NCBI GenBank assembly: GCA_015065335.1
Contig: SVQM01000007.1
Coordinates: 1 to 40,092 of the forward strand
DNA length: 40,092 nt
Direction of reading: 5' to 3'
From: Oscillospiraceae bacterium
GTDB lineage: Bacteria; Bacillota; Clostridia; Oscillospirales; CAG-272
The translations under genes and the position numbers were made by a program. Below the pieces are notes generated by a model, which did no database searches, was not told the DNA's origin, and was given only the letters and a program-made list of their open reading frames with translations. Positions 1 to 39,901 of this stretch are shown in pieces. Every line of letters starts with the position of its first letter. The stretch's first letter is position 1.

Positions 1-133
1 AAAACACAAGCGGTTTGGTGTGGCAGATGCTTTGTCATGTTCTCTGTTATGCCTTTTATGGGAAAAGCAGAAACATATCGCCGGTGACGGAGAATGGAAT
101 ATTTTAAAATTACACAACAAAAGGAGAATTTTT

Positions 134-817
134 ATGAAGAAAATAACAGCATTATTTTTAGCAGTATTTATGGCGGTCAGCCTATCCGTGAATCTTTACG
201 CAGCTGATTTTGACGTATCAGATTATAAAAATCCGTTTACAGGTACTGCATATACCGAAGATGATTTTTACGGAAACGGAACTATTATCATTATTTTGTC
301 TCATGAGGCAAGCATTGAGTGGCGTGAGTATACCAAGGAGGACTTCCCCGAACTTGAGCTTGATTCTGTTGATACAAAAGATCCTGCATCTACGGACAAA
401 GAATTCATTCTTGGAAATCCGGAATATCGCAACTTTGTGCACATTACTTTGAAGGACAAGAGCAACAAAGCTGTAATTGAAGCAATAGAGCTTCTGTATA
501 ACAGAAATGATGATGACTATATGTCCGAAAATCCTAAAAAGGATATTCATTTAGCGCTGCCCATGTACAAAACATACTATGATAAACCTGATATAAATCC
601 GGATATCGATGACAACTTTTCATATACAATAGGTGATGTTAATAATGATGATATTTTAAACCTTACAGACGTATCGCATATGCTAAAATATATAGCAGGA
701 TGGGAAAATATTGAGATTATTTTTTTAGCTACAGATTTAAACGGAGATGATGTGATTACTCTTAGCGACGCATCTATACTTCTTAAAAAACTTGCAAAAT
801 GGGGAATATATAATTAA
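134..817 (+). CDS. Secreted protein: signal peptide, subtilase-propeptide (I9)-like domain, C-terminal dockerin-like repeat pair
   Basis: ATG at 134 preceded by AAGGAGAA; MKKITALFLAVFMAVSLSVNLYA signal peptide. C-terminus GDVNNDDILNLTDVSHMLKYIAGWE...DLNGDDVITLSDASILLKKLAKW is dockerin-like. Middle segment resembles the N-terminus of the subtilase at 2154 (YTKEDFPELEL vs YTQSDFPEIEI). Confidence 0.85.
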   Translation: MKKITALFLAVFMAVSLSVNLYAADFDVSDYKNPFTGTAYTEDDFYGNGTIIIILSHEASIEWREYTKEDFPELELDSVDTKDPASTDKEFILGNPEYRNFVHITLKDKSNKAVIEAIELLYNRNDDDYMSENPKKDIHLALPMYKTYYDKPDINPDIDDNFSYTIGDVNNDDILNLTDVSHMLKYIAGWENIEIIFLATDLNGDDVITLSDASILLKKLAKWGIYN

Positions 818-857
818 GGGAATATTTTAAAATTATACAACAAAAGGAGAGATATTT

Positions 858-1403
858 ATGAAAAAGTTAACAGCATTAACAGTTACACTCGTACTTTTAA
901 TCTTATCATTAGCACAGGTCATATATGCATCGGATGAAGGTTATATTGGGAATATAGGTGAAATCAGAGTAGGTCTTTATGAAGCTGAGCGTTTTGACTA
1001 TGATTCATTTCCCGGTGTAAAAATACAAATAATTAGATACTACAGCAGTTGCGGCTTCTATATTATGCTTGAAGAAAGGACAATTAAAGCTACAGATGAG
1101 GCGGTAGAGATCATAAAATCAATTATCGGAGATAATATCGAGTATATAATACCTTCTTATAAGACGATAGTATCCGGCGACCTCATGTGGTATAACGGAG
1201 ATGCTGATAGTGATTGGGATTGTGATCTTACCGATGTATCTCTTGTTCTGAAATATATTGCCAAATGGGATGTGCCCTTTGAAAATTCGGAATTCGAAGC
1301 CGTGGATTTATACAGAGACGGTAAGATAACACTTGTGGACGTAACTATTATGATGAAAAAGATCGCCGGATGGGACCAGAGCAAATGGCTGCCGGCACAG
1401 TAA
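858..1403 (+). CDS. Secreted dockerin-like protein with diverged propeptide-like domain (tandem paralogue of 134..817)
   Basis: RBS AAGGAGAG; signal peptide MKKLTALTVTLVLLILSLAQVIYA; NGDADSDWDCDLTDVSLVLKYIAKWD...DLYRDGKITLVDVTIMMKKIAGWD dockerin repeats; IIPSYKTI motif shared with paralogues. Confidence 0.82.
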   Translation: MKKLTALTVTLVLLILSLAQVIYASDEGYIGNIGEIRVGLYEAERFDYDSFPGVKIQIIRYYSSCGFYIMLEERTIKATDEAVEIIKSIIGDNIEYIIPSYKTIVSGDLMWYNGDADSDWDCDLTDVSLVLKYIAKWDVPFENSEFEAVDLYRDGKITLVDVTIMMKKIAGWDQSKWLPAQ

Positions 1404-1436
1404 TTTCTAAAAAAAGGAGATATAAGGAGATATAAA

Positions 1437-1619
1437 ATGAAAAGGATTGCTTCGGGAGGATTGGATAATGACACTGATTCGTTAAGTACTAATGAGCATA
1501 GTTCAAATGAAAGTATTCATAAATACATAAAATTTTCTGAAGAAATTTTAGAAGAACATGTGAAAAGCAGAAACATATCGCCGGTGACGGCAAATGGAGA
1601 TGCGGATGAGTTTTTTTAA
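1437..1619 (+). CDS. Short hypothetical ORF (60 aa)
   Basis: ATG preceded by duplicated AAGGAGATAT; its 3' part contains a 29-bp sequence also found at 62-90. No recognisable domain. Confidence 0.3.
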   Translation: MKRIASGGLDNDTDSLSTNEHSSNESIHKYIKFSEEILEEHVKSRNISPVTANGDADEFF

Positions 1620-1641
1620 AAAAGAGGAAACACAAAGAAAT

Positions 1642-1672
1642 ATGAGCTTAGCATAACACCAAGCTCATTTGT
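1642..1672 (+). terminator. Putative intrinsic terminator hairpin
   Basis: ATGAGCTT..AAGCTCAT inverted repeat followed by a T/A-rich tract. Confidence 0.4.
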
Positions 1673-1732
1673 AAAATTTCAATTTTAATTTTATTCGGGT
1701 TTTACAGGATGTGATAATAACTTTGTTTATCA

Positions 1733-2023
1733 TTAAATGCTATGTCCTGCAATACGTTTCAAGATAAGCGAAGCATCTGACAAATTCAATACATTGTTAT
1801 TATCCATATCATATGAATGGAAATATTCATAAATGTCAACATCCCACTTGGCGACGTGTTTAAGAAGGAGCGATACATCAGAAAGATTATACTCACGGTA
1901 CGTGTCGCCTATAAAAGGTACTTCAACCCACCCATCAGGTATGTCATTGGCAAATGACACCGATGCAAAAACCGAGATAATGATACAAATAGCAATCAAA
2001 AACATCGAAAACTTTTTTAACAA
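1733..2023 (-). CDS. Small secreted dockerin-only protein
   Basis: TTG start at 2023 preceded by GGAGG; signal peptide LLKKFSMFLIAICIIISVFASVSFA; degenerate first repeat GDTYREYNLSDVSLLLKHVAKWD then intact DMDNNNVLNLSDASLILKRIAG. Confidence 0.75.
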   Translation of the reverse strand: MLKKFSMFLIAICIIISVFASVSFANDIPDGWVEVPFIGDTYREYNLSDVSLLLKHVAKWDVDIYEYFHSYDMDNNNVLNLSDASLILKRIAGHSI

Positions 2024-2153
2024 AACAATCCCTCCTAAACGATATATTCTCATCTATAGTATATGAAATATACTACACCATGGGAATATATTATACCACT
2101 TTTTTGAGCTTTTGTAAATACATTTTTGAAAATTTAAATATTTGAGGTGCAAA

Positions 2154-4829
2154 ATGAAAAAAATTATTAGTTCTATTATGTTGATATCAATCATTTTTTC
2201 TATATGTATCCCTGTTTTTTCCGATAACATAGATGACAATAACAACATAAATTACAGCCAAGCAAAAGATTCATTAAACTTTTGCGACGCTATACTTGAC
2301 AATGAATTTTCGGGTGATGGTGTTATATATGTGACTATGCATCACGATGTAAGTGATGTAGGGAAAATTTATACTCAATCTGATTTTCCGGAAATAGAAA
2401 TTGAAAATATTTTTGACATAACCTCAGCTAACATAAATAGTAAAAAAGAAGATTACGGACCTGATTTTAAGAACATATTAAAAATTATTCTTGTACATAA
2501 AGATAGAGATGGTGTTATTTCATCCATCGAAAAGCTACAGTTTAGAGCTAATGTCGATATATATTGGGTAGAACCCTCTTAAAAACTAACGTGTACAGAA
2601 GAGGTTATTATAGACAATTCGGAGCCTGTTTTTAATGACACATATTATCCATCTCAAAAATGGGTATATGATATTATTGGATTAACTGATGTATGGAGTG
2701 AATTCGATATTGATTGCAATTCTTTGAAAGTAGCAATAGTTGATAGGCATGGTGTTAAACAACATGAGGATATAGAATTGGAATCAGAAATAAATCTATA
2801 TGGTTCTGATTTTAATTATCAAACAGCCGGAAATCATGGTACTTCGTGTGCCGGCATTGTAGGTGCTACACAGAATAATGGGAAATGGGTTGCCGGTATT
2901 TGCAAAAATATTAGTATAATATCCATTATTCCTCCGAAACTATCATACAATGTTAATGATCCATCTGATTCTAATATTGTTTCTTTTTTTACAGATATAG
3001 TAAAGTGCCTTAATGATCATAATATTTCTGTCGCAAACATAAGTTTTTGCATTGAGGAACAGTATGTCTATGCCAATAAAACTTCTTGTGAGAATATAAT
3101 AAATAATTATCGGGGACTTTTAATATGTTCAGCAGGAAATAAAAATTTTGATGTTGATGATGAACCTCTCTTTCTATCAAGCTTTAATTGTAACAATATT
3201 ATTTCCGTTGGAGCTACAAATTCAAGTGATGAACTTTGGTATAAAAATAAACAATCAGGAACAAATTACGGAATCAAAAGTGTTGATTTGTTTGCTCCGG
3301 GACATGGGCTTAGTGTAATAATCGGTAGTGGTAGTTCATCTGATATAGAACTTGATGCTTATGGAACGTCTTATGCCGCTCCAATAGTCTCCGGCGTAGC
3401 TGCGCTGATAATGTCCGAAAATCCAAGTCTGGATCCCCTACAGGTCAAAGCTATCATTATGAATACGGTAGACAGAAGTGATGCTTTCATCGGTAAATGC
3501 GTCAGCGGCGGTAGAATCAACGCATACAGAGCTGTATATGTAGCACATGATCTGAAAGATAATGCTCCCGATACCGAAAGTCGTTACAACTCGAATTTCC
3601 TGTTCCATGCAAGCACAAATACTATTGTTAAATACGTAGGTATACACGGTACCCCTGATATGCCTTCAGAAATTAACGAAGTTCCTGTAACGAAAATAGA
3701 AGAACGTGCTTTTTATAAAAACACGTTCATCAGACAGATTGATATACCTTCAAATATTACGCGAATCGGTGAGGAGGCTTTCAGGCAATGCACGGCGTTG
3801 GAAACAGTTACCGTTGGCTCATCCATTATACAAGATAGAGCTTTTCTTGGATGTAATTCACTTGAAAACGTAACTCTCTCGAATAATCTTGTAGGTATAG
3901 GTGAAATGGCATTCTGGGATTGTAACTATGAATATATATCAGTCCCGAATACTCTGGTCGCCATCGGAGACGATGCATTTGCTCTGAGTTCGCATCTTAT
4001 TGTACCGGAAGGCTCGGATGTTCAAAATTACTTTGCATCAAAGGGTTACTCGATGCTTCTTATCACGGGCGGAAGTGTTTCCGGTTATCATAATGGCACT
4101 TTTGTTTATGTGGATCCCGATAATCCGGGAGGCCTTAAGAATATCAACATACCGGAATCCTATTTGGGTACTCCAATAACCTATATTGGCAGTCATGCTT
4201 TTGAAGATGCGGATAATATAGAGATGATCAATATACCCACCACCGTTACGTCCATCGGTTACAGAGCTTTCAGAGGCTGTGATAACCTTAAAACCGTGGT
4301 CATTCCTCCGTCGGTCACAAGTATTTCAAACAGCATGAACAGTACCATCGTTGAGGATTCACCCAATGCGACGATATACTGCACAAGGGCTTCGTCTGCT
4401 TATGGGCATGTGTTGCAGAATAATCTTTCATGCATTCATATGGAGACAAGAACAAATGACGCCGGGGATGAGTATGCGGTTGTGTGCGGACTGTTGGAAA
4501 AAGAGGGGAACGGAACAGAATATATTATTCCCGAGACTTTTGCAGGACTTACCGTAACCATGATCGATCCCGCTGCATTTTCATGTTCGATGGAAACTCC
4601 TTTTAACATGACAAAGATGTTTATTCCCGAAACTGTAGAAACGATCGGAGGCAATGCTTTTTCTGATTGTACTAATCTTACGGATGTTTACATATATTCA
4701 GATACAGCAACGGTAGGATTATACTGTTTTGCCGGTGTAGATACTTCGCATTTTAAAATACATTGCAAGTCCGGTTCTCCGGCATTTGTTTATGCGGCAA
4801 TTAACGGCTATACCTTTGTACTTATGTGA
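2154..4829 (+). pseudogene. Secreted S8 (subtilisin-like) protease with propeptide and C-terminal BspA-type LRR repeats, interrupted by an in-frame TAA at 2580-2582
   Basis: ORFs 2142..2582 and 2724..4829 are in the same frame; 2583-2723 is open in that frame (KLTCTEEVIIDNSEPVFNDTYYPSQKWVYDIIGLTDVWSEFDIDCNS). Triad motifs VAIVDRHGV (Asp), NHGTSCAGIVGA (His), YGTSYAAPIVSGVAAL (Ser). LRR-like repeats such as IPSNITRIGEEAFRQCTALETVTV. Signal peptide at 2154. Confidence 0.8.
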
Positions 4830-37733: not shown

Positions 37734-37795
37734 TATTGATTATTCTTTCAGAATGTATTAAAATATATACAGAAATAAATAAACGGAGACATATC

Positions 37796-39901
37796 ATGAA
37801 AACAGTAAAAAAATTATGCTCATTTTTCATTGCCGTGCTTACTTTGGTATCGGCGGTATCCGTATCATGTACCACAGAAGCGGCCACGCCGTCTCTGAAG
37901 GCTTCCTCCGCACTCACCATCAGTGCAGAGGACGGATATCTTCACGGTATCTGGGGCACTGTCACCGCCGAAAAGCTTGCGGCTGAGTTTGAAGATACCG
38001 TACAGATATCCTCAAACGGTAAAGCGATCTCCGGAAGCACTGCCGTATCATCCGATGATACTGTCTCGGCAGGAGGCACTTCCATTTCCGTGCTCATTTA
38101 CGGTGACAGCGACAGAAACGGAAGGATAAACCTGTCAGATGTGTCCATGATGCTGAAGCACATCGCAAAATGGGAGGTCACACCTTGTATCGCCGCTTCG
38201 GATACGGACATGAACGACAAGGTCACCCTCGCCGATGTATCATCTCTTCTCCGATGGATAGCCGGATGGGACATCACTCTCGGAGATTCGGTATTCCCCA
38301 AAACAGAGCTGAAGCTGAACGGGAATTTCAGCATAGTTATCCCCAAGATATACGATCCCTTTGAGATGGAGGCGGCAAAGCTGCTCTCTGCGGCTCTTGA
38401 CAAAATTTACGGAGAAAATAAGGGGAACGGACGCATAATCACCGACGATATGAGTGCCGTGTGCGAGATCCTTGTGGGAAACACTGCACGCAGCCGTTCT
38501 GCTGACGCAAGGAAAAAGCTCGGTGAATTTGAGTGGAGCTACGACATCCCCACAAACAGATCTGTTGTTATCACGGGAAGCGATCCCATAGGTACATACG
38601 AGGCAGTAAGTGCATTCGTGTGGGATCTTTTCGGTTATGTTGACAGAAACAATGTTATCTCCTCCTACAATAAGTGGAACGGCAGTGAGTATGTCACCGT
38701 CAATACTTCTTCGACGCTCACCACCGGCACAAAATACATATACGATCATGGCCCTTCGGAAAGATCTCTCACTCTCGGTGGCAGAGACATCTCTGAATAC
38801 GTGATCGTCGACAAATCCGGACACAGCGATTCCGCAGAGCTTCTCAGGAGAGCCATCGAGCGTGAAACAGGTCATTCCCTCTCTGTAGTATCAAAGAAGG
38901 AGGCGGTAAGCGCCCCTACGATAAGGCTTGGCATCGGCAAAGAGGAGAGTGGTGAATTCCTCATAGGGCTTTCCACGAATGTATTTGCCATTGGTCTATC
39001 GGGGGATGATATCCTAATCGACGTGCTTGATTATTCAAAGCTCCTCCATGCGGTGAGAGCATTTGATGAATGGTATATCCGCGGCGGTCTCGATCTCACC
39101 GAAGGAGAGATCAAGTACGGCGGCATCGGTTCAAATCTTCTTCGTGAGACTTCACGCACCGACACCGATATCTCCGACGGCGTTACTTATTCGGAAATAC
39201 GGTACACCGATAAGAACGGGCTTCCCGTTATCGCTTACGTAGTAAAAGCTGATAGGGGTGCAGAGCGTGTGATGATGGGCATGATGGACAACGGTACCGC
39301 TGTAACGAACTCCAAGGCAACGGTACTCGATGCGATAAATGCCGCAGAGGCTGACGGCATCGACATCGCCGCAGGCGTTAATGCGGATTTCTTCCACATC
39401 GAATCCGACTACTCACCTGTGGGACTTTGTGTCAAGGACGGGGTCATACTCAAGCAGAATACAGAAACAAAACCGTGGATCGCCGTTATGAAGGACGGTA
39501 CCTTTGATTGTGGTATCGCAGGCGAAGCACGGAGCAAGATCACAAGCATGGATCAAGGCTTCGGTGCATCTCACGTGCTTTTGAAATACGGGATCGTATA
39601 TCAGGATGGAGTTGGTGATTCCTTCGGTGAGATACGCCACCCCCGTACCGCCATGGGATATGACGGTGAGGGAAATGTGTACCTCATCGTGGTAGACGGC
39701 AGACGCCCCAAGCTGTCAAACGGTGCATCTCTCCTTGATCTTACGATAATTTTCAGAGATCTCGGCGTCACGAGCGGTGTGAATCTCGACGGCGGCGGCT
39801 CCTCCACCATGATCGTTGATGAGGACGGTTTCGTCACGAAGAACAGCCCTTCCGACGGTGCGCTCCGCAAAGTATTCAACTCAGTACTTATAAAGAAATA
39901 G
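37796..39901 (+). CDS. Secreted dockerin-containing phosphodiester glycosidase (NAGPA family) protein
   Basis: Signal peptide from ATG 37796; GDSDRNGRINLSDVSMMLKHIAKWE...DTDMNDKVTLADVSSLLRWIAGWD internal dockerin; C-terminal VNADFFHIESDYSPVGLCVKDG...HPRTAMGYDGEGNVYLIVVDGR...GVNLDGGGSSTMIVDEDG. Confidence 0.88.
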   Translation: MKTVKKLCSFFIAVLTLVSAVSVSCTTEAATPSLKASSALTISAEDGYLHGIWGTVTAEKLAAEFEDTVQISSNGKAISGSTAVSSDDTVSAGGTSISVLIYGDSDRNGRINLSDVSMMLKHIAKWEVTPCIAASDTDMNDKVTLADVSSLLRWIAGWDITLGDSVFPKTELKLNGNFSIVIPKIYDPFEMEAAKLLSAALDKIYGENKGNGRIITDDMSAVCEILVGNTARSRSADARKKLGEFEWSYDIPTNRSVVITGSDPIGTYEAVSAFVWDLFGYVDRNNVISSYNKWNGSEYVTVNTSSTLTTGTKYIYDHGPSERSLTLGGRDISEYVIVDKSGHSDSAELLRRAIERETGHSLSVVSKKEAVSAPTIRLGIGKEESGEFLIGLSTNVFAIGLSGDDILIDVLDYSKLLHAVRAFDEWYIRGGLDLTEGEIKYGGIGSNLLRETSRTDTDISDGVTYSEIRYTDKNGLPVIAYVVKADRGAERVMMGMMDNGTAVTNSKATVLDAINAAEADGIDIAAGVNADFFHIESDYSPVGLCVKDGVILKQNTETKPWIAVMKDGTFDCGIAGEARSKITSMDQGFGASHVLLKYGIVYQDGVGDSFGEIRHPRTAMGYDGEGNVYLIVVDGRRPKLSNGASLLDLTIIFRDLGVTSGVNLDGGGSSTMIVDEDGFVTKNSPSDGALRKVFNSVLIKK

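Follow-up and report, generated by a model that had tools for sequence, protein, structure and literature searches.

Dockerin-borne relatives of subtilase prodomains in a Clostridia genome, candidate trans-acting protease inhibitors

Two neighbouring genes at the start of contig SVQM01000007.1 of an Oscillospiraceae bacterium (assembly GCA_015065335.1), located at 134-817 and 858-1403 on the forward strand, encode secreted dockerin proteins that carry a domain resembling the prodomain of subtilisin-like (S8) proteases. The window, 40,092 nucleotides long, is the whole of this contig (C117); it belongs to a 2.16-Mb metagenome-assembled genome (MAG) that is 75% complete, and gene 134 is placed at its edge. 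With moderate confidence, and judging from sequence, we favour the reading that the 134 and 858 proteins are S8 prodomain descendants displayed on dockerins and that they act in trans as product-like inhibitors of subtilases. According to this model, the prodomains would have lost the S8 catalytic domain and would then have been placed on dockerins, which would hold them on cohesin scaffolds at the cell surface. The tethered prodomains would block subtilase-type enzymes by binding them close to the scaffold, thereby shielding the docked proteins. The target proteases could be foreign or the cell's own, and may be foreign subtilases; binding, inhibition and the identity of the target are what we infer from the patterns described below.

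Prodomain-like domains on dockerins

An earlier note on this DNA had described the two products as secreted dockerin proteins with a domain similar to an S8 propeptide, and their reading frames and dockerins are confirmed. The 134 protein (227 amino acids) consists of a signal-peptide-like start, the prodomain-like domain (about 269-580) and a dockerin (632-793), while the 858 protein (181 amino acids) consists of a signal-peptide-like start, a short and divergent version of the domain (about 951-1169) and a dockerin (1197-1364). Both dockerins are of type I and match Pfam PF00404 (5e-7 for 134 and 2e-6 for 858).

The homology of the domain is most directly supported by a foreign-only profile, which was built from S8-attached prodomains of other genomes, with window and stand-alone sequences excluded, and was run against 1,478 open reading frames (ORFs) including all those of the window. 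This profile matched the 134 domain (5e-11), the prodomain of the S8 gene at 2154 in the window (2.6e-12), a free copy of 134 amino acids on contig C50 of the same genome (6.5e-15) and a dockerin protein on C150 (5.5e-7); in the same 1,478 ORFs it did not match 858. The 134 domain scored 2.7e-30 against profile A2, and a leave-one-out search gave it E=2.8e-25 (1.3 for the top-scoring unrelated ORF of the window). The signal for 858 is weaker: left out of the mixed profile, it was found at E=0.006 (1.1 for the top-scoring unrelated ORF of the window), and a pairwise comparison within a small set of 16 sequences matched it at 2e-6 to a further dockerin-borne copy, on C50. The first scan of the genome contigs, with the 134 protein as query, gave no match. 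On the profile evidence, the 134 domain is securely identified as a true homologue of the S8 subtilase prodomain, and 858 is a probable, divergent member of the same family.

The AlphaFold2 model of the 134 domain (predicted local distance difference test, pLDDT, 85.4) has strands at 29-34, 55-60, 80-85 and 117-122 and helices at 36-39 and 90-106. The predicted order, beta-alpha-beta-beta-alpha-beta, is the one that a subtilase prodomain should have. The closest described family appears to be the Fervidolysin-type prodomain (PF22148, Fervidolysin_NPro-like), which was touched by 9 of 24 copies (best E 8e-5) and was the only Pfam family touched by several of them. The 134 domain itself gave no match to PF22148, and a stand-alone relative (L047) reached 19 bits versus the curated cut-off of 21. 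The earlier note had called the domain I9-like, but membership of Inhibitor_I9 (PF05922; MEROPS I9) is not supported, with none of the 24 copies matching that model at E up to 1. A profile of the prodomain plus the start of the mature enzyme matches fervidolysin (1r6v, 1.6e-7) and pro-subtilisin E (3whi, 3.2e-7) over a stretch that spans the end of the prodomain, and profile A3 alone gave no prodomain match among PDB sequences.

The window genome also contains candidate partners for the dockerins. Two cohesin proteins were found (on C48 and C79), each also carrying a dockerin, and there are 101 dockerin matches at E up to 0.01. The genome contains six stand-alone copies of the prodomain-like domain, namely 134, 858 and four more, three of those four with dockerins. 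The C150 copy is a dockerin protein of 482 amino acids, and C50 carries three tandem copies: one with a dockerin and an unnamed 'YG' domain, one with a dockerin, and the free copy, which has neither dockerin nor protease. The free copy shares 62% identity with the window S8 prodomain, which is also its partner in the domain tree (0.93). No family support was found for reading the C-terminal parts of the C150 protein and of a protein from genome G807 as PrcB-like.

Relatives, repeated origin and the end at the predicted cleavage point

The domain is sparsely distributed in the sets searched, which comprised 295 genomes from the order, 391 from the class, 295 from the family and 398 from the phylum. 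In the class outside the window's order, the matches are mostly the prodomain of an S8 protease; within the order, many copies stand alone. The prodomain-dockerin architecture recurs in other genera and beside S8 genes. Dockerin-borne stand-alone copies occur in a single genus with three species (G026, G050 and G086) and in G807, and RGIG6331 (locus L091) has dockerin proteins with a stand-alone prodomain. Other copies are attached differently: G259 encodes four tandem lipoproteins, RGIG5552 (locus L087) has three tandem lipoproteins ahead of an S8 gene, and G008 has a prodomain protein with a C-terminal membrane anchor directly after an S8 gene with a dockerin. In two other class members (G659 and G591) the copies are free secreted proteins. 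Across the Clostridia, stand-alone copies are anchored by a dockerin, a lipobox, S-layer homology (SLH) domains or a membrane anchor. The named relatives are uncultured Clostridia, chiefly from the ruminant gut, plus one Treponema. Matches at L110 and L111 are probably due to chance.

Stand-alone and S8-attached copies are interleaved in the domain tree, and some stand-alone copies are sister to the S8 prodomain of the same locus (support 0.998 in G120, 0.992 in G086 and 0.969 in RUG14066). The tree is built on 98 columns and many of its deep branches are weak. Interleaving and same-locus sisters together argue that stand-alone copies originated repeatedly, each time when the catalytic domain was lost. 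The ratio of non-synonymous to synonymous substitution rates (dN/dS) between copies that all stand alone is 0.24-0.33 at L087, 0.14-0.34 in G259 and 0.27 at L091, which argues for selection on them as stand-alone proteins. Between 134 and the dockerin-borne C150 copy, synonymous sites are saturated and dN is 0.33, with non-synonymous changes per site far below synonymous ones (Fisher 5e-16), the mark of purifying selection.

Stand-alone genes also lie close to protease genes in relatives. Both kinds of gene were present in 11 of the sampled genomes, and in 6 of these a stand-alone gene lies within 5 kb of an S8 gene, with 0.15 such genomes expected (Poisson 1e-8). The arrangement is operon-like in genus g27, where a prodomain-dockerin gene starts 65 bp (G050) or 38 bp (G086) downstream of an S8 gene that itself encodes a dockerin and lies on the same strand.

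The strongest hint of mechanism in these sequences is the place where many copies end. A processed subtilase propeptide ends at the P1 residue and inhibits with its tail in the active site. Profile-to-PDB alignment places residue 1 of several mature subtilases (the mature chains of thermitase, gliadinase, AK.1 protease and others) eight residues past a conserved proline, so the predicted P1, the point of self-cleavage, is the seventh residue past it (Pro+7). A motif-based estimate of the P1 position in 33 sequences gave a mode of 7 (n=16), followed by 8 (n=9). Among stand-alone copies that are C-terminal in their protein, 7 of 12 lineages stop at exactly Pro+7; for two of the lineages (C50 and G175) the alignment was made by eye.

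The adjacent S8 gene and competing explanations

The only Peptidase_S8 detected in the window genome, as far as a 75%-complete MAG covers it, is the gene at 2154. On the forward strand, 2154-2582 encodes a signal-peptide-like start and the prodomain, closed by an in-frame TAA (2580-2582) that sits one codon past the conserved proline with which the prodomain closes (VEPS*). The same frame then stays open for 748 codons (2583-4829) and encodes the S8 catalytic domain (2727-3473; PF00082, 4e-33) and LRR_5 repeats. The columns of the catalytic triad are present (invariant D197, H228 and S406), and DRHG is found where relatives show DSG or DTG. There is no in-frame ATG or GTG between the TAA and TTG 2724, which is the first start codon, and so the catalytic half would be made without a signal peptide. 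When folded as a read-through product (pLDDT 64), the catalytic domain is clearly a subtilase, and the docking of the prodomain is unreadable at such quality. Unless an assembly error created the stop, the S8 at 2154 is probably dead or decaying in this MAG, and the stop would leave a secreted prodomain as the sole product of the gene.

The earlier note had envisaged displayed prodomains that protect a complex from proteolysis or that chaperone or regulate this adjacent protease in trans. The homology, the dockerins and the cohesins hold up, but regulation of the 2154 protease is doubtful: the stop codon falls right after the prodomain, the catalytic half has neither signal peptide nor ordinary start, and an opposite-strand gene separates 134 and 858 from the S8 gene. 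Five genomes have in-frame stops in S8 genes of this type (the window TAA, TAG in G811, G769 and G642, and TAA in G355; loci besides the window L137, L147, L100 and L096), and three of the five lie near the junction of prodomain and mature enzyme.

Several points weigh against trans inhibition by the 134 and 858 domains. With its in-frame stop, the S8 at 2154 is probably inactive and therefore unlikely to be their present target, and in G005, G016, G026, G235 and G259 S8 was not detectable despite stand-alone copies. Both the adjacency and the sister relations could also come from tandem duplications in which the catalytic half was later lost. Dockerin-borne copies run past Pro+7 into a linker and do not end at the cleavage point; moreover, the Pro+7 pattern was recognised in hindsight, and a null in which tail length varies uniformly from 4 to 15 residues simplifies matters. 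Foldseek and VIA comparisons of the 134 domain with the PDB gave generic ferredoxin-like or RRM matches only (Z up to 6.5). Finally, a decayed catalytic remnant follows the stand-alone copy in G120, and the RUG14066 copy is truncated. Repeated origin, varied surface anchors, proximity to S8 genes and ends at Pro+7 together favour trans-acting product-like inhibitors, or foldases.

Subtilase prodomains are indeed foldases, and a close alternative is that the tethered prodomains act as trans chaperones which aid the folding or localisation of S8 proteases on the same scaffold. The gene pairs of genus g27, with the prodomain-dockerin gene 38-65 bp beyond the S8-dockerin gene, would suit such a role, as would the S8 with a dockerin directly before the membrane-anchored prodomain protein in G008. 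However, the S8 proteins of g27 and G008 already carry prodomains of their own, the sole detected S8 of the window genome is interrupted, and some genomes have stand-alone copies without an S8. We regard a foldase role as less likely than inhibition.

Less likely again is that surface proteins have taken over the prodomain fold as a neutral module for binding or structure, with no connection to proteases. The ferredoxin-like fold is generic, the domain occurs in S8-less genomes, and it is fused to CotH and, next to extracytoplasmic function (ECF) sigma genes, to the outer portion of membrane proteins. S8 proximity far above chance and the Pro+7 end speak against a neutral module. The least probable explanation, by a hair, is that stand-alone copies are decaying by-products of S8 duplication, the prodomain half lingering without function after catalytic loss; the in-frame stops and the remnants in G120 and RUG14066 are of the kind it predicts, but dN/dS well under 1, new anchors, multi-copy expansion and conservation of the Pro+7 end in unrelated lineages all speak against it.

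Neighbouring features, known systems and implications

Beyond 858, a small ORF of unassigned nature (1437-1619, forward strand) carries at its end a 41-nucleotide repeat that is 93% alike to the leader upstream of 134. It is followed, between 858 and the S8 gene, by a reverse-strand gene (1733-2053) for a secreted protein of 106 amino acids that is almost solely a degenerate dockerin; it scores 1e-12 with a home-made dockerin profile and falls under the Pfam threshold. Another dockerin-like protein, at 37736-39901, has a NAGPA phosphodiester glycosidase domain. A repeated leader of 127 bases precedes the prodomain-dockerin genes, and parts of it appear again at 816-850 and 1558-1598. These 127 bases are identical at two contig ends (window 1-127 and C50 15102-15228, L040), which is probably an assembly overlap inside the repeated leader and so probably indicates that the family has spread by duplication.

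Additional associations of the domain were seen in relatives. A prodomain-like domain is fused to SLH domains in G934 (L146, 592-1890) and to a CotH kinase domain in G554 (L114, 1288-3192). In genus g27, a gene for an ECF sigma factor and then one for an anti-sigma-like membrane protein stand directly upstream of the S8 and prodomain-dockerin genes. Loci with such sigma and membrane-protein genes are L120 (675-2404), L126 (3368-4884), L119 (3-1510), L118 (2472-3374), L045 (167-2067) and L044, and in G005, apparently also in G011, the membrane protein encoded next to the sigma gene has the prodomain fused to its outer part. The ECF sigma/anti-sigma linkage possibly reflects protease-sensing signalling. 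A domain with the pattern 'YGTY...EAYExGxLTxEDI', the 'YG' domain mentioned above, recurs on stand-alone prodomain proteins and beside S8 genes, in Treponema as well (L043, L045, L048, L129 6163-7095 on C50, L046, L089, L090, L099, L142 and L149). It is fused to S8 in L090, and no Pfam model for it was found.

Stand-alone propeptide inhibitors of the I9 family are known from fungi (yeast Pbi2 and Pleurotus POIA1), and a cyspin is an I29 cysteine-protease propeptide. The proposed working of 134 and 858, a subtilase prodomain without its protease serving as inhibitor, is that of Pbi2 and POIA1; unlike these, the window proteins are bacterial, secreted, anchored and without a match to Pfam Inhibitor_I9. 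The fervidolysin prodomain (1r6v) is alike as the nearest sequence family and as an N-terminal S8 prodomain that the S8-member profile reaches, but it is covalently part of its protease, whereas the window domain stands alone on a dockerin and falls under the Pfam cut-off. Dockerin-bearing S8 subtilases (L074, L085, L100 and L121) share the same or a diverged prodomain and the same kind of dockerin and, unlike 134 and 858, keep the catalytic domain; an internal loss in such a protein could plausibly give rise to a prodomain-dockerin protein. The serpin PinA of Clostridium thermocellum is reported to inhibit subtilisin-like proteases (going by a reference title in PMC5301203), and cyspins of Clostridium cellulovorans showed inhibition (PMC3444338). 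PinA and the cyspins are dockerin-borne like 134 and 858 and are thought to protect the complex; their inhibitor folds (serpin and I29) are unrelated to the window prodomain. Dockerin-borne inhibitors and stand-alone propeptide inhibitors are both known already, and the combination that appears to be new is a Fervidolysin-type prodomain on a dockerin, of which no description was found in the open-licence literature, most subscription journals lying outside that search.

More tentatively, gut Clostridia may repeatedly have freed the subtilase prodomain and turned it into an anchored trans inhibitor or sensor, with swappable anchors (dockerin, lipid, S-layer or membrane), free forms that end at the self-cleavage point, and an ECF sigma/anti-sigma link in some genera. 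The sequences may point in this way to a little-noticed mode of restraining proteases. If the inhibitor reading is correct, it would give a function to a secreted protein family that is unnamed in Pfam and NCBIfam. It also raises the questions of whether a prodomain that evolved to act in cis can be released repeatedly for use in trans, and whether an end at the cleavage point predicts inhibitory strength. Cellulosome-like complexes would then have a second, unrelated route of protection from proteases beside serpins and cyspins, built from the protease's own safety catch.

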